64,000 nucleotides of DNA from Haloactinopolyspora alba (GTDB lineage Bacteria > Actinomycetota > Actinomycetes > Jiangellales > Jiangellaceae): NCBI RefSeq assembly GCF_003014555.1, contig NZ_PYGE01000015.1, forward strand, positions 1 to 64,000, given 5' to 3'. The notes under the pieces are model-generated. The model was not told the DNA's origin. It worked only from the letters and a program-made list of their open reading frames with translations, and ran no database searches. Made by a program: the position numbers and the translations under genes. How positions within the stretch are numbered: the first letter of the stretch is position 1; each line of letters starts with the position of its first letter. Shown in pieces: positions 8,163 to 18,013 of this stretch.

Positions 8163-8243
8163 GCGGGGCGTCAACCCGCGAGTCACACCGTCCGGGCGGC
8201 GGGTCTTGACCGTCTCGCCGCGCCACCGGTAGCGTCACCTTGA

Positions 8244-8257
8244 GGAAAGCGTTTTCC
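8244..8257. promoter_or_regulatory. LacI-type operator upstream of the ABC transporter operon
   Basis: GGAAAGCGTTTTCC is a near-perfect palindrome centred on CG (6 of 7 pairs), fitting the LacI/GalR consensus with AA-x-CG-x-TT core. It is 42 bp before the permease start. Similar sites occur at 12375 and 13344. Confidence 0.75.
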
Positions 8258-8298
8258 GTGCTCGCCGACCGCTGCCGACGACAAGGAAGAGTTCTTCG

Positions 8299-9213
8299 AT
8301 GACGTCTGACGTGTCCAGCCGCGACGGGCTGACGGACCAGGATCGCCCGGCCGGAGCCGGCGTCGACGGACCGGACGCCGGCGAGGAACTGCCCACCCCG
8401 GCCGCGCGGAACGCCGTGCTGCGCTGGACGCTGCAGGCGTTCTCCGCGGTGTGGCGGCCAGGGCTGCTGCTCATCCTCCTCGGTGTCGGCTGGTGGGTCG
8501 TCACCGCCGCGGAGATGTTCCCCGCCTATCTCGTTCCGACGCCGGGCGACGTCTGGGCGACGCTGCTGGAGGATCGGGAGATGCTCGCCACCCACACCTG
8601 GGTGACGACGTACGAGACCGTGGTCGGCTTCCTGCTGGCCGCCCTCATCGGGATGGTCGCCGCCGTCCTCATCGTCTACTCCCCCACGCTCGAGAAGGCG
8701 CTGTACCCGCTGATCCTGTTCGCGCAGGTCATTCCGAAGATCGCGATCGCGCCGATCCTGGTCGTCTGGTTCGGCTTCGGCCCGACGCCCAAGATCATCC
8801 TGGCCGTGCTCATCGCGTTCTTCCCGGTGGTGGTCTCCGGCGTCGCCGGCCTGCGCTCCACCGACCCGGCGCTGCTCGACCTGTCGTCCACGATGGGCGC
8901 CAGCCGCTGGCAGACCTTCCGCAAGATCCGGTTCCCGGGTGCGTTGCCACACCTGCTCTCGGGACTCAAGGTCGCCGTCACCCTCGCCGTCGTCGGCGCG
9001 GTGGTCGGCGAGTTCGTCGGCGCCGACGAAGGGCTCGGCTACGTGCTGCTGCTGGCCAGCGGCAACCTCAACTCGTCCCTGCTGTTCGCCGACCTGATCC
9101 TGATGTCCGCGCTCGGTGTCGCTCTGTTCGTCCTGGTCGAGGCCGCCGAGGCGCTGCTGATCCCGTGGCACGCCAGCCGCAGGCAGGCGATCCCGATGAC
9201 GACGACGTCCTGA
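8299..9213 (+). CDS. ABC transporter permease, SsuC/ThiX-like
   Basis: 304-residue inner-membrane component of a nitrate/sulfonate/pyrimidine-type ABC importer. After a hydrophilic N-terminal ~45 residues there are about six membrane segments. The cytoplasmic coupling (EAA) loop is visible as LSSTMGASRWQTFRKIRFPG. AAGGAAG precedes the ATG. It is the first gene of a four-gene operon with binding protein, ATPase and NCS1 permease, under a LacI-type operator. The operon partners suggest a small heterocyclic or pyrimidine-like substrate, but this is not decided by sequence. Confidence 0.85.
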   Translation: MTSDVSSRDGLTDQDRPAGAGVDGPDAGEELPTPAARNAVLRWTLQAFSAVWRPGLLLILLGVGWWVVTAAEMFPAYLVPTPGDVWATLLEDREMLATHTWVTTYETVVGFLLAALIGMVAAVLIVYSPTLEKALYPLILFAQVIPKIAIAPILVVWFGFGPTPKIILAVLIAFFPVVVSGVAGLRSTDPALLDLSSTMGASRWQTFRKIRFPGALPHLLSGLKVAVTLAVVGAVVGEFVGADEGLGYVLLLASGNLNSSLLFADLILMSALGVALFVLVEAAEALLIPWHASRRQAIPMTTTS

Positions 9214-9256
9214 CCCGAGCCCCCTACCCCCGTCAATCCGAGAAAGGTGCCGCGCG

Positions 9257-10261
9257 ATGCGACGTAGCTTGCTGACCACTTCGGTGGTGGCCCTTTTCAT
9301 CCTCGCCGCCTGTGGCAGTGGCGAGACGACGACCAGTGGCGACGGTGACGGCCCGACCGAGGTGACCCTGACGCTGAACTGGGTGCCCTACGGCGAGCAC
9401 GCGCCGTTCTACTACGGCGTCGCCGAGGGGATCTACGAGGAGGAGGGCATCGACCTCGAGATCAAACCCGGCAGCGGGTCGACCACCACCGTCCAGCAGG
9501 TCGCCCAGTCCCAGACGGAGTTCGGCTGGGCCGACACGCCCGCGTTGCTCAACGGCGTCTCCGAAGGCATGCCCGTCAAGAGCGTCGGCGTCTTCCTGCA
9601 GAAAGGACCGTCGTCGGTGGAGTTCTTCGCCGAGCAGGGTGTCAGCGAGCCCGCGGATCTGGCCGGGTTGACCGTGGCCGGGACACCCGGTGACGCGATG
9701 TACGCGACGTTCCCGGCGTGGCTGGAGCTCAACGGCGTCAACCCCGAGGACGTCAACGTCGTCAACGTCGACCCCGCGGGCAAGATCGCCGCGCTGGTGG
9801 AGGGTCGGGCGGACGCGATCATGGGCTTCTTCCACGACCAGGCGCCGACCATCGAGAACATCAGCGGCAACCCGGTCGAGGTGCTCCAGTTCTCCGACTG
9901 GGGGATGAACCTGCTGGGCACCGGGATCGTCGTGCACCAGAAGACCATCGACGAGAACCCGGAGCTGGTCGAGTCGTTCGTCCGGGCCACCGCCCGGTCC
10001 TGGGAGGCCGCCGCCGAGAACCAGGAAGCCGCTGCCGCGGCCATGGAGGAGGCGGCCAGCGAGACCCCCGAGACGCAGGTCCTCGTCGACCAGCTCGACA
10101 AGAGCCTGGGGCTGCTGCAGCTGGACACCGCCCCCGCTCCGGGCGTGAACACCGAGGAGCAGTGGCAGGAGACGATCGACCTGCTCGCCGAGCACGCGGA
10201 CCTGAAGGATCCCGGCGATCCGTCGACGTACTGGGACCCGTCGTTCGCCGAGGCCGGGTGA
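9257..10261 (+). CDS. NMT1/THI5-type substrate-binding lipoprotein
   Basis: 334-residue extracytoplasmic binding protein. A lipoprotein signal MRRSLLTTSVVALFILAAC places the lipidated Cys at residue 19. The mature part begins with an acidic/Thr linker, then VTLTLNWVPYGEHAPFYYGV and GIYEEEGIDLEI, the hallmark start of NMT1/THI5-like proteins such as the pyrimidine-precursor binding protein ThiY. Substrate could be a pyrimidine or thiamine precursor, a sulfonate or another small molecule. It lies 43 bp after the permease, and its stop overlaps the ATPase start. Confidence 0.85.
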   Translation: MRRSLLTTSVVALFILAACGSGETTTSGDGDGPTEVTLTLNWVPYGEHAPFYYGVAEGIYEEEGIDLEIKPGSGSTTTVQQVAQSQTEFGWADTPALLNGVSEGMPVKSVGVFLQKGPSSVEFFAEQGVSEPADLAGLTVAGTPGDAMYATFPAWLELNGVNPEDVNVVNVDPAGKIAALVEGRADAIMGFFHDQAPTIENISGNPVEVLQFSDWGMNLLGTGIVVHQKTIDENPELVESFVRATARSWEAAAENQEAAAAAMEEAASETPETQVLVDQLDKSLGLLQLDTAPAPGVNTEEQWQETIDLLAEHADLKDPGDPSTYWDPSFAEAG

Positions 10262-11091
10262 GCGGCACGATGACCTCCGAGACCGCCGCCGAGCCGGGCG
10301 AGCACGGCTCCCAGACCGTGACCCCGACCATCGACGTCCATGACCTCACCTGCACGTTCCGGTCGAAACGGCAGAGCACCACCGCCCTGCACGACGTGTC
10401 GCTGCGCGTCGGCGCCGGTGAGTTCGTGACCATCCTCGGACCGTCCGGCTGCGGCAAGTCCACCCTGCTCAAGATCATCGCCGGGCTGGTGCCGCCCACC
10501 ACCGGCCACGTCGACCTGCTCGGCGGGCGGGTACGGGAGCCGCAGCGCGACATCGGCTTCGCGTTCCAGCGTGCCGCGCTGCTGGAGTGGCGCGGTGCGC
10601 GCGCCAACATCCTGCTGCAGGCCGAGATGCGCGGCATGGACAAGCACACGGCGGCCGAGCGGGCGGACCGGCTGATCGAGCTCACCGGCCTGACCGGGTT
10701 CGAGGACGCGCTGCCGCACGAACTGTCCGGAGGGATGCAGCAACGTGTCGCACTGTGCCGGGCGCTGCTGCACGAGCCCCCGGTGCTGCTGATGGACGAG
10801 CCGTTCGGCGCGCTCGACGCGCTCACCCGCGAACACATGAACGTCGAGATGCACCGGATCTGGCGGGAGACGTCGACGACAGTCGTCCTGGTGACGCACT
10901 CGATCGCCGAGGCCGTCTACCTCGGGCAGCGGGTGGTGGTCATGACGCCGCGGCCGGGCCGGATCGAGCGGGTCTACGACGTCGACCTGCCGCAGCAACG
11001 CGACTACGGCGCCACCATGTCCAGCACCACGTTCGAGACCCTGGCGAGCGAGATCCGCGCCATCCTGGGTGCCAGCGCCCACAACGGATGA
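10258..11091 (+). CDS. ABC transporter ATP-binding protein, SsuB/ThiZ-like
   Basis: 277-residue ATPase that energises the importer. Walker A GPSGCGKST, signature LSGGMQQRVALCRAL, Walker B VLLMDEPFGALDAL and the switch His in LVTHSIAEAV are all present. The GTG at 10258 overlaps the binding-protein stop as GTGA; an ATG at 10270 is the alternative start. It also overlaps the next gene as ATGA. Confidence 0.9.
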   Translation: MSGTMTSETAAEPGEHGSQTVTPTIDVHDLTCTFRSKRQSTTALHDVSLRVGAGEFVTILGPSGCGKSTLLKIIAGLVPPTTGHVDLLGGRVREPQRDIGFAFQRAALLEWRGARANILLQAEMRGMDKHTAAERADRLIELTGLTGFEDALPHELSGGMQQRVALCRALLHEPPVLLMDEPFGALDALTREHMNVEMHRIWRETSTTVVLVTHSIAEAVYLGQRVVVMTPRPGRIERVYDVDLPQQRDYGATMSSTTFETLASEIRAILGASAHNG

Positions 11092-12281
11092 GCGTGGCCG
11101 GCCCGGCGCCGGCGGCGCAACGGCGCTGGTGGCACACCGCCGGCGCCTGGCTGGCCATCGGCACCTCCCCCGCCGCGCTCGTCCTCGGCGCCGGGGTGGC
11201 CGACCGGCACGACGGGCCGATGCCGCTGATCACGCTGCTGCTCAGCGGCGCGGCCATGGCGGCGCTGCTGCTGGTCCAGGGGCGGCTGGGGGTGCTCCCG
11301 CCGTACGGCGAGGGCTGGCCGCTGTCGGACGTGCTCGACGGCTACCTGCCGCGCCGCGACCGGACGCTGGTCTCGCTGCTCATGGCGCTGTCGATGGTCG
11401 GCTGGCTGGGGTTCAACGCCGGCCTCGGCGGTGCCGCGCTGGCGTCGCTGCTGGATGCGCCGCGGTGGCTGGGGGTCGGCGTACTCGGGCTTCCGCTGCT
11501 CGTGCTCGCCCTCGCCGGGCAGCACCGCTGGAACGGTCCGGCCGTGCTCACCACGGCGGCCGCACTGGCGCTGGTCGGGCTGGTGGCGATCCGCGGCGCC
11601 GAGACCACGGTTCCGGTCACCGCCCGGCTGGACGCGCCGGCCCTCCTGCTCGCGGACGTGTCGGTGTTCGTGGGCTACGTGTCGGTCTTCGCACTGCGTG
11701 CCCCGGACTTCACGGCCGGGTTGCGCGGCCGCGGTGACCTGCGGGCGTGCGCGGTCGTGCTGGTCGTCCCCACGCTCGTCGCCGCGGCCGCGGGCACGAC
11801 GGTCGCGCTGCGCGGAGGCTCCAGCGACCTGGTGGCCCATCTGCAGGCCTCGACCCTCGGCACGGCGCTGATCGCCGTCGCCGTCGTCGCACCGTCGCTG
11901 ACCGCCTACCACTCCGGCGGGCTGGCGCTGCGGTCGGTCACGCCACTGTCCGGACGGTCCGCGACGCTCGCGGTGGGTGTCGCCGGACTGGCCCTGGCGA
12001 CCAGCGGGTTCGAGAGCGTCCTGCTGCCCTGGCTGACCGTCCTGGCGGCCGTGCTGCCGCCGCTGGTCGTGCCGCTGGCCGTCGAGGCGCACGCGCGGCG
12101 TCGTGGCCGCGGCCACCGGGTCGTGCTCGCGATGTGGCTGCCCGCCGCCGGGCTCGGGCTCGTGCTCACCGCGTTCGGCGTGACCGGTGCGCCGCTGGTC
12201 GGCCTGGCCGCCGCCGGAGTGTCCACGGCCGTGGCGCGCGCGATGCACCGGCGTGCGCTTCGCCGTCGCGCCATCCCATGA
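11088..12281 (+). CDS. NCS1-family (cytosine/purine-type) permease
   Basis: 397-residue, very hydrophobic protein with about 11-12 membrane segments. NCS1 landmarks are the entry segment LAIGTSPAALVLGAGV, the GWLGFNAGLGGAAL segment, VFALRAPDFTAGLRG, and YHSGGLALRSV resembling the YSAGLAL block of cytosine/hydantoin transporters. Its ATG overlaps the ATPase stop. Pairing an NCS1 carrier with a THI5-like ABC importer resembles thiamine-pyrimidine salvage clusters, but LacI control would be unusual for that pathway. The substrate is unassigned. Confidence 0.7.
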   Translation: MSVAGPAPAAQRRWWHTAGAWLAIGTSPAALVLGAGVADRHDGPMPLITLLLSGAAMAALLLVQGRLGVLPPYGEGWPLSDVLDGYLPRRDRTLVSLLMALSMVGWLGFNAGLGGAALASLLDAPRWLGVGVLGLPLLVLALAGQHRWNGPAVLTTAAALALVGLVAIRGAETTVPVTARLDAPALLLADVSVFVGYVSVFALRAPDFTAGLRGRGDLRACAVVLVVPTLVAAAAGTTVALRGGSSDLVAHLQASTLGTALIAVAVVAPSLTAYHSGGLALRSVTPLSGRSATLAVGVAGLALATSGFESVLLPWLTVLAAVLPPLVVPLAVEAHARRRGRGHRVVLAMWLPAAGLGLVLTAFGVTGAPLVGLAAAGVSTAVARAMHRRALRRRAIP

Positions 12282-12329
12282 TCATCGGCACTTTCCGGCC
12301 CATACGGCGGTTCTCTGCCGATGATCATG
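12277..12329 (+). terminator. Inverted-repeat terminator after the transporter operon
   Basis: Perfect 14-bp arms CATGATCATCGGCA (12277-12290) and TGCCGATGATCATG (12316-12329) with a 25-nt loop. The left arm overlaps the NCS1 gene stop codon. There is no T-tract. It belongs to a set of TGATCA-containing hairpins at operon ends in this window. Confidence 0.7.
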
Positions 12330-12374
12330 CGAACCGACCCATTGACGACCCGAAAGCGTCCCCGTAACCTTCTG

Positions 12375-12388
12375 GGAAAACGCTTACC
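12375..12388. promoter_or_regulatory. LacI-type operator upstream of the isomerase gene
   Basis: GGAAAACGCTTACC, centred on CG, matches the 8244 and 13344 sites. It is 44 bp before the isomerase ATG and just after the preceding terminator. Confidence 0.75.
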
Positions 12389-12431
12389 GGCAGAGCGACC
12401 CAACTGGCACCCAGAAGGGCGGAGCATCCGG

Positions 12432-13298
12432 ATGACCCCAGGCACAGGTGACATGGACCGTCGTACGTTCCTCCGGTCGAGTGCGAGCACGGCGCTGGCT
12501 GCCGGCGCGCTGGGCGTGATCGGCGCCGGCAGCGCGTCCGCCGCGGACCGTCCGATCCCCAGGCCGGGCATCGGGATGCACCTCTACACCATGCGCCGGT
12601 CGCTGGCCGACGATTTCGCGGGCACGCTGGGCGAGCTCGCCCGCATCGGCTACGCGACGGTGGGCGTGAGCGGACGGCACGGGCACAGCGCCGCCGAGAT
12701 CCGCAGCATGATCGACGACACCGGGATGCGGGCCGTCCTCGAGCACGTCGGGCTGAACCGGATCGACGACCGATGGGAGCAGGCCTGCGAGGAGGTCGTC
12801 GTCCTCGGCGGCGAATGGATCGTCATCCGCAGCCTGCCCGGCGTGGACTACACCGCCGACTCGTTCCGCGCCCTGGCGGACACGTTCAACCGCGCCGGCG
12901 AGACGGCGTCGCGGTACGGGCTCAAGGTGCTCTTCCACAACCACGACGCCTCGTTCGCCACCGACGAGGGGCGTGTGCTGTACGACATCCTGGTCGAGGA
13001 GACCGAACCGGAGTACGTGGGCTTCGAGCTCGACGTGTACTGGATGGTCCGCGGCGGGTACGAGCCCGCCGACTACTTCGTCCGTTACCCCGCGCGCTTC
13101 CCCGCGCTGCACGTCAAGGACATGGCTCCGGACGGCGGATTCGCCGACGTCGGGTCAGGCGTCCTGGACTTCGAGGCGATGTTCGCCGACGCGCACCGCG
13201 GCGGCGTGCGCCAGTGGCTCGTCGAGCACGACGACCCCGAGTCCGAGTTCGCGACGGCCCGCAACAGCTTCGGGGCCCTGCGCGCCATGCGCTTCTGA
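12432..13298 (+). CDS. Tat-exported sugar phosphate isomerase/epimerase (xylose isomerase-like TIM barrel)
   Basis: 288 residues. The N-terminus carries a twin-arginine signal, DRRTFLRSSASTALAAGALG followed by SASA, predicting export in folded form. The mature part is an AP-endonuclease-2/xylose isomerase-like barrel. Putative metal ligands are the Glu of VLEHVG, the His of LFHNHDA, the Asp of FELDVYW, the His of LHVKDM and the Glu of LVEHDDP. The ATG at 12432 has GGGCGGAG upstream; an internal ATG at 12453 is possible. It shares LacI-type control with its neighbours, suggesting extracellular processing of a sugar derivative. Confidence 0.82.
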   Translation: MTPGTGDMDRRTFLRSSASTALAAGALGVIGAGSASAADRPIPRPGIGMHLYTMRRSLADDFAGTLGELARIGYATVGVSGRHGHSAAEIRSMIDDTGMRAVLEHVGLNRIDDRWEQACEEVVVLGGEWIVIRSLPGVDYTADSFRALADTFNRAGETASRYGLKVLFHNHDASFATDEGRVLYDILVEETEPEYVGFELDVYWMVRGGYEPADYFVRYPARFPALHVKDMAPDGGFADVGSGVLDFEAMFADAHRGGVRQWLVEHDDPESEFATARNSFGALRAMRF

Positions 13299-13343
13299 AA
13301 CCTCTGCAGCGAACGAACCCCCGGCCGTGGCGGCCGGCACTGC

Positions 13344-13357
13344 GGTAAGCGCTTACC
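13344..13357. promoter_or_regulatory. LacI-type operator upstream of the ThuA-dehydrogenase gene
   Basis: GGTAAGCGCTTACC is a perfect 14-bp palindrome with the CG centre expected of LacI-family operators. It is 64 bp before the 13421 ATG. Confidence 0.8.
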
Positions 13358-13420: not shown

Positions 13421-16400
13421 ATGATCCGTCCGACCCTGACCGGCGCACTCGTCGCGGCGCTCGCTGTCGCCGTGCCGTCGACGATCGGTCAACCGCCCGC
13501 AACCGCCCAGGAACCCGTCCCTCAGCACGAGGCCGGCTTCGACGCGCTCGTGTTCTCGAAGACGACGAACTTCTACCACGAGTCCATCCCCGCTGGTGTC
13601 GCCGCGATCGAGTCCCTCGGCGAGGAGCACGGGTTCAACGTCGTGGTTTCCGACGACTCCACGATGTTCACCGACGAGACGCTCGCCGAGTTCGAGGTGG
13701 TGATCTTCAACAACACGAACTCCACCCCGCAGGCCGGCAACCTGCTGGGCGGCGACCAGCGCGCGGCGTTCGAGCGCTACATCCAGGCCGGCGGCGGCTT
13801 CGTCGGCATCCACTCCGCGTCCGGTACCGAGCGCGACTGGCCGTGGTACGGCGAACTCGTCGGCGCGTTCTTCGCCAGCCACCCGGCCGTGCAGGAGCTC
13901 GAGGTGGAGGTCGACGACCCGCAGCACCCGTCGACCGCCCACCTACCGCAGGAATGGACCCGCACCGCCGAGCCGTACGACTTCGCCACCAACCCGCGCG
14001 GCGACGTGCACGTGCTGGCCAGCTACGACAGCAAGTCCTACGAGGGCGACCAGATGGGCGCGGACCACCCGATCTCGTGGTGCCAGCGCTACGACGGTGG
14101 TCGCTCCTGGTACACGGGCATGGGGCACGCGTCGTCGGCGTTCACCGACGAGCCGCTCTTCCTCGACCACCTGCTCGGCGGCATCGAGTGGGCGGCCGGC
14201 GCGGCCGAGGGCGACTGCGGCGCGACGGCCGGCGCCAACTTCGAGAAGATCCAGCTGGACGGGAACACCGACGACCCGCTGGCGATGGACATCGACGACC
14301 GGGGCCGGGTCTTCTACGTCCAGCGCGGCGGTGCGCTGAAGTACTACGACCCGCAGACGTCCCGCACGCACCGCGCCGCGACGTTCGACGTTCTGGTCGA
14401 GCACACGCACGGCATGCACGGCATCGTCCTCGACCCGGACTTCACCGAGAACCACTGGCTCTACGTCTACTACTCGCCGCTGAACAAGGACGTCAGCCTG
14501 GTGTCCCGGTTCACCTTCGACGAGCAGACCGGCACCCTCGACATGGACTCCGAGAAGGTGCTGTTCGAGATCAACTCCCAGCGCGACGTCAACGCCCACG
14601 AGGGCGGCGGGATGGACTTCGACGCCGACGGGAACCTCTACGTCGCGACCGGAGACAACTCTCTTCCGTGCTGCAGCGGCTACGGCGCGACCGACGAACG
14701 GCCCGGCCACGAGCACAGCGACGCCCAGCGCTCGTCGGCGAACACGAACGACCTGCGCGGCAAGGTGCTGCGGGTGCACCCCACGGACACTGTTGCCGGC
14801 GGCTACACGATTCCCGAGGGCAACCTGTTCGAGCCGGGAACGCCGCGGACACGTCCCGAGATCTACGTCATGGGGCTGCGCAACCCTTACCGCATCCACG
14901 TCGACAACGAGACCGGCTGGCTGTACTGGGGTGACGTGGGCCCGGACGCCCGCAACGACAGCGACACCCGGGGCAGCAAGGGCTACGACGAGTACAACCA
15001 GGCGCGCGAGGCGGGCTTCTTCGGCTGGCCGTACTGCATCGGCGACAACCACGCCTACAACGACCACGACTTCGCCACCGGCGAGTCCGGACCGCTGTAC
15101 GACTGCGCCGGCGGCCCGGTGAACGACTCGCCGAACAACACCGGAGCGCAACAGCTGCCCCCCGCGCAGCCCGCGTGGATGTCCTATCCGTACGGGGTCT
15201 CGCCGCAGTACCCGGAGCTCGGCAGCGGGGGCCGGCTGGCCATCGGCGGGCCCACGTACCACTTCGACCCGGAGCTGGACTCGGAGGCGAAATTCCCCGA
15301 GTACTACGACGACACCGTCTTCGTCGCCGAGTGGACGCGGAACGCGATCTTCGAGGTGAAGCTGGACGAGAACGGCGACCCGGCCGTCATCAACCCGTTC
15401 CTGCCGGGCAAGGAGTTCCTGCGCCCGATCGACATGCAGTTCGGCCCGGACGGTTCGATGTACGTCATCGAGTGGGGCAGCAACTACGGCGGGTCCGGCC
15501 GCGGCGATCCGAACACCGACTCGGGCATCTACAAGATCAACTACGCCAAGATCGGCGAGCGCTCGCCGGACGCCCGAGCGAGCGCCACGCCCACGTCCGG
15601 GCAGCCGCCGCTGACCGTGCAGTTCTCCAGTGACGCTTCCGGCGACCCGGACGAGCATCCGATCAGCTACGCCTGGGATTTCGACGCGGACGGCACCGTC
15701 GACAGCACCGACCCGAACCCGGTGCACACCTACACCGAGCGCGGCGACTACACCGCGCAGCTCACCGTGACCGACCCGACCGGGCGGACCGGGGTCTCGA
15801 ACGTCCCGATCACCGTCGGCAACACTGCGCCGGTCGTCGAGATGGTCGAACCGCGCGACGGCCAGGTGTTCGGCTTCGGCGAGCCGATCGACTTCGACGT
15901 ACGGGTGACCGACGCCGAGGACGGCTCCAGCGAGGACGGCACCATCGACTGCCAGCAGGTCGTCACTCAGCCCAGGCTCGGCCACGACGAGCACGGCCAC
16001 CCGCTCGAGCGGTACCGCGGCTGCGCCGGCACCGTCGAGGCGATCGTCGACGAGGGCCACGACGAGCACGACAACATCTTCTACATCGTCGACACCACCT
16101 ACACCGACCAGGGCGGCACGGGCGCCTCCGCGCTGACCGGGGGCGACTCGGCCATCCTGCAACCGCGGCTGAAACAGGCCGAGCACTGGACCGGCGCCGG
16201 TGACGTGGCGTTGTACGACACCCAGGAGGGCGACGGCGGCCGAATGGTCGGGCAGATCGGGCACCGTGACTGGATCTCCTTCGAGCCGGTGAACCTGCAC
16301 GGCGTGACCCAGCTGACCTTCCGGGTCGCCTCGTCCGGGTCCGGCGGCACCATCGAACTGCGCACGGACGCGGTCGACGGACCGGTGATCGGCAGCGTCG

Positions 16401-18013
16401 ACGTCGCCCCGACGGGCGGGTCCCGCACCTTCGAGACCGTCACCGCGCAGGTCGACGACCCCGGAGGCACGCACGAGCTGTTCCTCGTGTTCACCGACGA
16501 GCCGGGCCAGGAGTACCTGTTCAACCTCGACTGGATGCGGTTCGAGAACCCGGCCACCGACCCGCTGCGCGAGGTGGGCGGACTGGCCGGTGACCTGCGC
16601 GACACGACGGCCGCGCACGCCGGTGCCCTGGACGACGAGCAGGAGAGCTACCTGGGCGACCTGGCCGGGCGGGTCGAGGCCGCGGCCGAGGCGGCGCTGG
16701 ACGTCGCCGACACGTCCGGCACGGACGACCCCGCCTTCACCGAGCACGTCGACGAGGCGTTCACGCACGTCGCCGGCGGACGGCGGTGGATCACCGGGCA
16801 GGTGGACGCCGGCGAGCTCACCGACGAGGTGGCCACCGACCTGCTGACACCGGTGACGGCCGCGCACGACGTGCTGTCCGGCGCGGTCGCCGAGCTGTAC
16901 GGGCTGGACGCGACGCTCGAGACGGACGCCGCGGAGGTGGTCGCCGGCGAGCCGGTGCTGGCCAACGCGACGCTGTCGAACGACGGCAACCGGCCGGTAC
17001 GTGACCCCGGGCTGGCCCTGGAGGTGCCGGAGGGCTGGGACGCCGAACGGGTCGGCGCGTCCGACCTCCGGGTGCTCGAACCCGGCGCGGCGGTCACCGG
17101 GCGATGGCGGCTCACCCCGCCGGCCACGGCCGAGCCGGCGGAGGTGGAGCTCGCCGGCACCGCGAGCTTCGTCCACCGCGGCCGCAGTCCGGCCACGCTG
17201 CCGCTGACGGCCGAGCTGGACGTGCTGGCGGCCGTCGAAGTGTCCGGGATGGACGTCGGCACGCCCGTGTTCAGCGGGCGCGCGAACACCGCGACCGTGT
17301 CGGTCACGAACAACCGTTCGGCGCAGGCGGCGGAGGTCGACGTGACGGTCGACGTCCCCGCGGACTGGAGCGCGAGCACCGGGTCGGTGACGGTGCCGGC
17401 CGGATCCACGCGCCAGGTCGACGTCACCGTGTCGCCGCCGGCGGGCGCTCCGGCGGCCGGCGAGGTCGCCACGCCGAGGCTTACCGCGCGGGTCACCGCC
17501 GACGGCACGGCGGTCGCGGGCGCACCGGAGAGCACGACCTACGTGGTGCCGCACGGCGACGACGTCGCGATCGCGCTGGACGGCGGTTCGGCCGGCAGCC
17601 CGGTGCTGGACTCCTACACCGGGCTCGCCTCCGGCGACGAGTGGGACCCGGAACGCGGCTTCGGCTGGGTCAGCGGCCCGCCGCAGGAGCGTGACCGCGG
17701 CCATCCGGACGCGCTGCGCCGCGACTTCGTGCTGGACAACAGCGGGCCCGGCGAGCTGCGCGTCGCCGTGCCGCCGGGTGAGCACGTGTTCTCCCTGCTC
17801 ACCGGCGACCCCGACTACTCGACGTCCGGGTTCGTGGTGTCGGCGGACGGCTCGGTCGTGTCACCCGCACGGGCGACCATGCCCGAGGACACCTACGCGT
17901 GGAAGGAGTTCACCCTGGACGGCGGCGCCTCGGGGCGCACCGTCGACCTGACCCTGTCCAGCCCGGACGGGTCGTACTGGCGGATGCTCGCGCTGGTGGC
18001 GCGGGCGCGATGA
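13421..18013 (+). CDS. Giant secreted ThuA + glucose/sorbosone dehydrogenase + PKD + carbohydrate-binding protein
   Basis: 1530 residues. A Sec signal peptide ends near residue 29 (ATA-QE). Approximate domain order: ThuA-like glutamine-amidotransferase fold 38-265 (GGGFVGIHSASGTE); PQQ-type glucose/sorbosone dehydrogenase propeller 275-710 (HEGGGMDFDADGNLYVATGD, MGLRNPYRI, DMQFGPDGSMYVIEWG); PKD 723-800 (YAWDFDADGTVD); CBM6-like 905-1043; a helical ~110-residue segment 1050-1163; two NEW3-like beta domains about 1163-1270 and 1272-1377; and a C-terminal beta domain ending RMLALVARAR. No CxxCH heme motif is present. The layout implies oxidation or hydrolysis of a polysaccharide-derived sugar outside the cell. 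Substrate unknown. Confidence 0.85.
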   Translation: MIRPTLTGALVAALAVAVPSTIGQPPATAQEPVPQHEAGFDALVFSKTTNFYHESIPAGVAAIESLGEEHGFNVVVSDDSTMFTDETLAEFEVVIFNNTNSTPQAGNLLGGDQRAAFERYIQAGGGFVGIHSASGTERDWPWYGELVGAFFASHPAVQELEVEVDDPQHPSTAHLPQEWTRTAEPYDFATNPRGDVHVLASYDSKSYEGDQMGADHPISWCQRYDGGRSWYTGMGHASSAFTDEPLFLDHLLGGIEWAAGAAEGDCGATAGANFEKIQLDGNTDDPLAMDIDDRGRVFYVQRGGALKYYDPQTSRTHRAATFDVLVEHTHGMHGIVLDPDFTENHWLYVYYSPLNKDVSLVSRFTFDEQTGTLDMDSEKVLFEINSQRDVNAHEGGGMDFDADGNLYVATGDNSLPCCSGYGATDERPGHEHSDAQRSSANTNDLRGKVLRVHPTDTVAGGYTIPEGNLFEPGTPRTRPEIYVMGLRNPYRIHVDNETGWLYWGDVGPDARNDSDTRGSKGYDEYNQAREAGFFGWPYCIGDNHAYNDHDFATGESGPLYDCAGGPVNDSPNNTGAQQLPPAQPAWMSYPYGVSPQYPELGSGGRLAIGGPTYHFDPELDSEAKFPEYYDDTVFVAEWTRNAIFEVKLDENGDPAVINPFLPGKEFLRPIDMQFGPDGSMYVIEWGSNYGGSGRGDPNTDSGIYKINYAKIGERSPDARASATPTSGQPPLTVQFSSDASGDPDEHPISYAWDFDADGTVDSTDPNPVHTYTERGDYTAQLTVTDPTGRTGVSNVPITVGNTAPVVEMVEPRDGQVFGFGEPIDFDVRVTDAEDGSSEDGTIDCQQVVTQPRLGHDEHGHPLERYRGCAGTVEAIVDEGHDEHDNIFYIVDTTYTDQGGTGASALTGGDSAILQPRLKQAEHWTGAGDVALYDTQEGDGGRMVGQIGHRDWISFEPVNLHGVTQLTFRVASSGSGGTIELRTDAVDGPVIGSVDVAPTGGSRTFETVTAQVDDPGGTHELFLVFTDEPGQEYLFNLDWMRFENPATDPLREVGGLAGDLRDTTAAHAGALDDEQESYLGDLAGRVEAAAEAALDVADTSGTDDPAFTEHVDEAFTHVAGGRRWITGQVDAGELTDEVATDLLTPVTAAHDVLSGAVAELYGLDATLETDAAEVVAGEPVLANATLSNDGNRPVRDPGLALEVPEGWDAERVGASDLRVLEPGAAVTGRWRLTPPATAEPAEVELAGTASFVHRGRSPATLPLTAELDVLAAVEVSGMDVGTPVFSGRANTATVSVTNNRSAQAAEVDVTVDVPADWSASTGSVTVPAGSTRQVDVTVSPPAGAPAAGEVATPRLTARVTADGTAVAGAPESTTYVVPHGDDVAIALDGGSAGSPVLDSYTGLASGDEWDPERGFGWVSGPPQERDRGHPDALRRDFVLDNSGPGELRVAVPPGEHVFSLLTGDPDYSTSGFVVSADGSVVSPARATMPEDTYAWKEFTLDGGASGRTVDLTLSSPDGSYWRMLALVARAR

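Follow-up and report, generated by a model that had tools for sequence, protein, structure and literature searches.

Three matching operators in Haloactinopolyspora alba and a candidate LacI-family regulon that joins an NMT1-type importer to secreted carbohydrate enzymes

Introduction

The closest described systems are LacI-type sugar regulons, operons for glycoside degradation and transporters of thiamin precursors. In the LacI sugar regulons described in the searched passages of PMC4052901 (including AglR, with the motif nnntcAAAGCGCTTTgannn, and ThuR), a regulator with a LacI helix-turn-helix and a Peripla_BP domain acts on sugar-catabolism targets through an even palindrome centered on CG, and the sites and candidate regulator reported here resemble them in all of these respects. 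Unlike those regulons, the present one has sites with GG..CC outer bases, a regulator gene that in this genome is unlinked to most of its putative targets, and NMT1- and NCS1-type transporters among those targets. The regulon itself does not appear in those passages of the paper.

The Agrobacterium operon for O-glycoside degradation consists of GlycDH, AtOGE, AtHYD and Gfo, and the levoglucosan and puerarin operons are alike (PMC10628242). Our gene set shares with it an oxidoreductase, two TIM barrels (one of which, TIM1, is homologous to AtOGE) and a Gfo protein, but differs in that the putative oxidizing enzyme is a secreted ThuA-GSDH protein, TIM1 is exported, DUF993, cupin and PL8 genes are added, and the genes are scattered. 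One of its members also carries the domain (PF06439) of the DUF1080 3-keto-glycoside hydrolases (PMC9007349), which here, unlike there, is fused to ThuA-GSDH-PKD-CBM6. Rhizobia encode strong homologues of GfoX, DUF993 and TIM2, all three proteins of another operon of the set (PDB 3oqb, 4dnh and 3ju2, the last being SMc04130). Uptake of thiamin precursors by ThiXYZ/CytX offers the nearest parallel for the transporters, with a permease, an NMT1-type binding protein and an ATPase beside an NCS1-fold carrier; the differences are that our window contains no riboswitch and our regulon no thiamin gene, that control is of the LacI type, and that the sequence similarity is distant.

Operators and genes of the window

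The window is a stretch of 64,000 nucleotides that begins contig NZ_PYGE01000015.1. A sequence-only reading had pointed to three matching 14-mers in it, at 8244, 12375 and 13344, and all three are present on the + strand. Operator 1 (GGAAAGCGTTTTCC, 8244-8257) lies 8 bp after a -10 element and 41 bp before the called start at 8299; operator 2 (GGAAAACGCTTACC, 12375-12388) lies 4 bp after a -10 element and 43 bp before the start at 12432. Operator 3 (GGTAAGCGCTTACC, 13344-13357) is a perfect palindrome 63 bp before the start at 13421, and the promoter scan recognized no promoter of its own. These distances, measured to starts from a simple gene caller of our own, agree with the 40-65 bp given earlier. 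At up to two mismatches the window holds four matches against 0.50 expected, a number that was reached in no shuffle. The same reading had assigned one operator to each transcription unit; each does precede a gene, but TIM1 and the ThuA-GSDH gene are directly adjacent in several Jiangella genomes, so units two and three could form a single one.

Operator 1 is preceded by a sigma70-type promoter (8206-8235, + strand; TTGACC, 18 bp, TAGCGT), and aligned Jiangella importer promoters have TTGACC-18-TAACGT in common. The importer operon, also on the + strand, begins with an ABC permease (8299-9213; Pfam BPD_transp_1), followed by a lipoprotein substrate-binding protein of the NMT1/THI5-like type (9257-10261) and an ABC ATPase (10258-11091, by domain search). 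The binding protein scores 159 bits against Pfam NMT1 (2e-46; cut-off 20.5), and the best folds for its AlphaFold model (pLDDT 90) are ThiY (3ix1, E 2.9e-23) and a thiamin-binding protein (4nmy), at ∼23-24% identity, with PqqT further down the list. The fourth gene (11088-12281) encodes a membrane transporter that matches neither the Pfam NCS1 profile nor any other Pfam family above cut-off, DUF997 (E 0.03) falling under its own; the earlier NCS1 call is nonetheless borne out by the fold of its AlphaFold model (pLDDT 75), for which Foldseek gives CodB (7qoa) at TM 0.72 and Mhp1 at TM 0.68. The Rfam search gave no match in the window, whether a TPP riboswitch or any other, and there are no thiamin genes among the members of the regulon.

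Between operator 1 and the permease there is a remnant of a small cupin gene (8271-8309, + strand), whose frame reads AADDKEEFFDDV followed by a stop. The operator 1 14-mer is identical before the importer operon in the relatives' loci L069-L074 and L118, and in two of these an intact cupin of ∼113 residues lies between operator and permease (L073:974-1400, ending in AADDKDEFFDD and a stop, and L069:8702-9065). Read against these sequences, positions 8258-8309 are the scar of a deleted cupin gene, whose last codons (AADDKEEFFDDV and the stop) overlap the permease start.

TIM1 (12432-13298, + strand) is an exported xylose-isomerase-like TIM barrel (PF01261) with a Tat-type signal, DRRTFLRS, and it is transcribed from a predicted sigma70-type promoter at 12342-12370 (+ strand; TTGACG, 17 bp, TAACCT). 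Its relatives in the PDB are 8tcd, 8tcs, 8tct and AtOGE (8bvk). His134 and His189, the catalytic residues tested in the O-glycoside eliminase AtOGE (PMC10628242), are both conserved in TIM1 when it is aligned to the 8bvk chain. Downstream of operator 3, a secreted ThuA-GSDH-PKD-CBM6-NPCBM_assoc protein of 1530 residues is encoded at 13421-18013 (+ strand; domain search). Two further structures were seen in the intervals: an inverted repeat, ATGATCATCGGCA ... TGCCGATGATCAT (12279-12330), terminator-like by eye, between the NCS1-like gene and the TIM1 promoter, and a hairpin, CCGGCCGTGGCGGCCGG (13322-13338, no strand assigned), between TIM1 and operator 3.

Sites in the genome

The pattern GGWAARCGYTTWCC has five matches in the 5.54 Mb genome, and GGNAARCGYTTNCC, in which the third base is free, has exactly seven; the reversed-pattern control gave 0 for both, and the numbers expected by chance are ∼0.02-0.1 and 0.3-1.2, respectively. 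As GGNAARCGYTTNCC was chosen after the conserved sites were known, the five-site count for GGWAARCGYTTWCC is the cleaner test. With either pattern, the scan that the earlier consensus called for returns few sites, all of them before genes of the set, rather than many random hits. A looser 14-mer, GGNANNCGNNTNCC, was uninformative (110 matches against 82 for its control).

Besides the three operators of the window, the strict sites are located 30 bp before the gene of a secreted 1664-residue ThuA-GSDH-PKD-CBM6 protein with the 3-keto-disaccharide hydrolase domain PF06439 (C2:480545), ∼30 bp before that of a secreted 1105-residue ThuA-GSDH protein fused to a TIM barrel of the TIM1 kind (C23:18914), before the Gfo/Idh-DUF993-TIM operon (GfoX, DUF993 and TIM2; C9:45211), and before a PL8 polysaccharide lyase gene (C3:32948). 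All seven lie immediately upstream of such genes, which belong to one functional set. A site with one mismatch (C2:295228) precedes a cupin gene whose relatives are found inside a Micromonospora cluster, and this gene is probably an eighth unit of the regulon. The sites are spread over five contigs. The proposed tie between the NMT1-type ABC/NCS1 operon and secreted carbohydrate enzymes thus holds across the genome, as every strict site precedes such a gene, and the arrangement is kept in relatives. The site at C12:148884 (GGAAAGCCCTTTCC) is not before any gene of the set and was taken as chance.

Four operators of this genome, those of the importer, of TIM1 and of the ThuA-GSDH genes on C2 and C23, lie 4-15 bp behind the end of a TTGACN-17/18-(-10) promoter, so that a bound repressor would cover the transcription start site. 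The promoter scan found none at the GfoX, cupin and PL8 sites.

Conservation in relatives

Exact sites occur in 19 of 22 genomes of the family, with 0 control matches. In Jiangellaceae, a site with at most one mismatch is present upstream of GfoX in 11/11 cases, of TIM1 in 8/8 (44-70 bp before the start in all eight loci) and of first genes of the ThuA-GSDH type in 10/11, compared with 13 of 263 first genes in the background. Among actinobacteria outside the family, such a site precedes the importer permease in 40 of 64 loci, against 13 of 548 in the background. Many of the loci counted were fetched by site or by importer and are mutually related, so that P values derived from these counts overstate their independence. 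Orthologues of the PL8 and cupin genes were fetched by protein alone, and these have a site before 12 of 17 family copies (PL8, at most two mismatches) and 10 of 19 (cupin, at most one mismatch), our own copies included. In Micromonospora, a single cluster contains a LacI gene, the cupin, the importer, GfoX-DUF993-TIM2 and the NCS1-like gene.

Some promoters of relatives show a variant form. Upstream of LacIx-type and cupin genes of Micromonosporaceae and Actinophytocola, the center of the operator is CC/GG rather than CG, as in GGAAAGCCCTTTCC (L081:7925, L095:8852, L116:5034, L121:8083 and others), and in several of these genomes the -35 element is overlapped by a second, CC-centered site that lies 41-43 bp before the main operator.

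A candidate regulator in trans

The genome has 34 LacI genes, and the absence of a local regulator that was reported for the window is literally true of it and of the whole 140-kb contig on which it lies; our candidate, which we call LacIx, is on another contig (C9:46505-47542, minus strand). LacIx has a LacI helix-turn-helix (PF00356, 6.8e-15) and a Peripla_BP sensor domain (PF13377, 2e-30), and no other protein of the genome matches it at E≤1e-60. Its gene is a neighbor of the GfoX operon both in this genome and in Jiangella; in the Jiangellaceae genomes of other genera that were examined (G016-G021), an exact site upstream of GfoX is no more than ∼6 kb away from it in 6/6. Both here and in Jiangella, the LacIx gene and an inositol (iol) operon (L045:11683-19000) are arranged divergently, and the interval between them has no more than a weak site.

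Relatives that include Micromonospora and Actinophytocola have a LacI gene no more than a few kb from the importer operon, and its orientation is often divergent to that of the cupin gene. LacIx is the best match of all these importer-adjacent LacI proteins among our own LacI proteins tested and, in a maximum-likelihood tree that included 29 of the 34, the only one to fall into a clade (100/100) with 17 of them. Two genomes have their best LacIx match in a gene other than the importer-adjacent one. The importer permease is preceded by a site in 24 of 31 loci with LacIx and in 0 of the 15 in which the LacI is unrelated, which indicates that motif and regulator type go together. In six of the remaining seven LacIx loci, the site precedes a neighboring upstream gene, ThuA-GSDH or GSDH; the last one (Actinomadura, L139) shows only sites with two mismatches. 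In Streptomyces sp. 150FB, the importer occurs together with a 1-mismatch site, but LacIx is absent.

An exchange of regulators is seen in Promicromonosporaceae and relatives (L075-L078, L083-L085, L090, L092, L094, L097 and L115), which keep the importer with another type of LacI and lack the operator; we found no group-wide CG-centered palindrome before the permease of the Promicromonosporaceae loci that might serve their LacI.

It had been proposed to look for the regulator by way of a site in its own promoter. The LacIx promoter does have one, but with two mismatches, and a search for a perfect site would miss LacIx; weak sites of this kind occur in 6 of 21 LacIx-type genes tested in the family.

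We conclude, with a probability of about 0.8, that the three sites are operators of this single LacI-family repressor, which would act in trans on seven to eight units: the importer operon, TIM1, the three secreted ThuA-GSDH genes, the GfoX-DUF993-TIM2 operon, PL8 and the cupin gene. The sequences themselves show the sites, their specificity and conservation, the promoter geometry and the kinship of the regulator. From these we infer that LacIx binds the operators, the sign of control and the action of an inducer: without inducer, LacIx would occupy the operator over the transcription start and repress, and a pathway metabolite would bind its periplasmic-binding-protein-like domain and release it.

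A possible pathway

What the regulated genes do together can be read, with slightly less than even confidence, as the breakdown of 3-keto-glycosides by a pathway whose steps are divided between the two sides of the membrane. Extracellularly, the ThuA-GSDH enzymes would oxidize glycosides and TIM1 would beta-eliminate them; a small ring product would enter through the ABC importer of the NMT1 type, the NCS1-type transporter or both; and inside the cell, TIM2, GfoX and DUF993 would finish its conversion. The resemblance of TIM1 to AtOGE and the presence in one regulon of a Gfo/Idh protein, a second TIM barrel, GSDH and a 3-keto-disaccharide hydrolase domain make oxidation, elimination, hydration and reduction of glycosides the best reading. 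Rhizobia (4dnh) share the DUF993 protein (L045:6877-8040), which is also conserved in the regulon. The library searched had no paper on DUF993 and no relevant one that treats ThuA as a keto-sugar isomerase, and the literature on the neighbors of SMc04130 dealt with regulation by PhaR only and gave no function.

For the importer we advance a speculative and rather unlikely proposal, that its substrate is a planar enone derived from sugar (a 2-hydroxy-3-keto-glycal) or a related keto-sugar, which secreted ThuA-GSDH and TIM1 would make outside the cell; the NCS1-fold partner may share in the uptake, and a single LacI repressor would control the whole. Carriers of the NMT1 and NCS1 types would suit a planar ring of sugar origin as well as a heterocyclic aglycone.

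Alternative explanations

It is improbable that another LacI-family protein, or several paralogues, bind the sites and LacIx is merely a neighbor of the GfoX operon. The genome's many LacI genes offer candidates for this role, several of them sharing the A-T-x-S-R recognition stretch, and G021 has three further exact sites near other LacI genes and unrelated sugar/peptide transport genes (L199:9464, L200:9303 and L201:8975), which implies that other regulators use similar operators; yet LacIx alone clusters with the importer-adjacent LacI proteins, and the motif is gone where the LacIx type is replaced. Because its gene is divergent from the iol operon, in Jiangella as in the present genus, LacIx might instead be an IolR and the regulon one for inositol-type compounds. 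We consider this equally improbable, as a site with at most one mismatch precedes iolG in 0/4 cases, the divergent LacIx-iolG region having a 2-mismatch site, and LacIx-type genes are found in Micromonospora clusters without iol genes. Global carbon control by a CcpA-like regulator is less probable still. The operator core, AARCGYTT, resembles that of cre-type sites, but only seven strict sites exist in 5.5 Mb, all in one functional set, and on this number we rejected it; in addition, the outer bases are GG..CC and not TG..CA in 42 of 42 aligned sites, although the collecting pattern demands GG..CC, with one mismatch allowed.

The remaining alternative would leave the regulon and the LacIx regulator unchanged and alter only the ligand: the importer and the NCS1 gene would salvage a compound like the thiamin pyrimidine, a nucleobase or a cofactor (even PQQ for GSDH), with the sugar enzymes deglycosylating its glycoside. 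We regard this as possible though on balance unlikely. It would accord with the binding protein's nearest relatives of solved structure (ThiY and a thiamin-binding protein, PqqT coming further down) and with the proximity of the NCS1-fold partner to the cytosine carrier CodB, but identity to the thiamin proteins is low, the window is without a riboswitch and the regulon without thiamin genes.

Significance

Three look-alike sites have become a defined regulon with a named candidate regulator, which provides a functional context for DUF993, for the ThuA-GSDH fusion proteins and for an NCS1-like family that has no Pfam model. As a rule, NMT1-type importers are annotated as carriers of thiamin precursors or of sulfonates, and what makes the finding interesting is that an importer of the vitamin-precursor type is linked to a sugar regulon; it predicts that importers of this type can serve carbohydrate catabolism in actinobacteria. 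If the uptake of a keto-glycal proved true, a transporter family of the vitamin-precursor type would have been recruited to sugar uptake.
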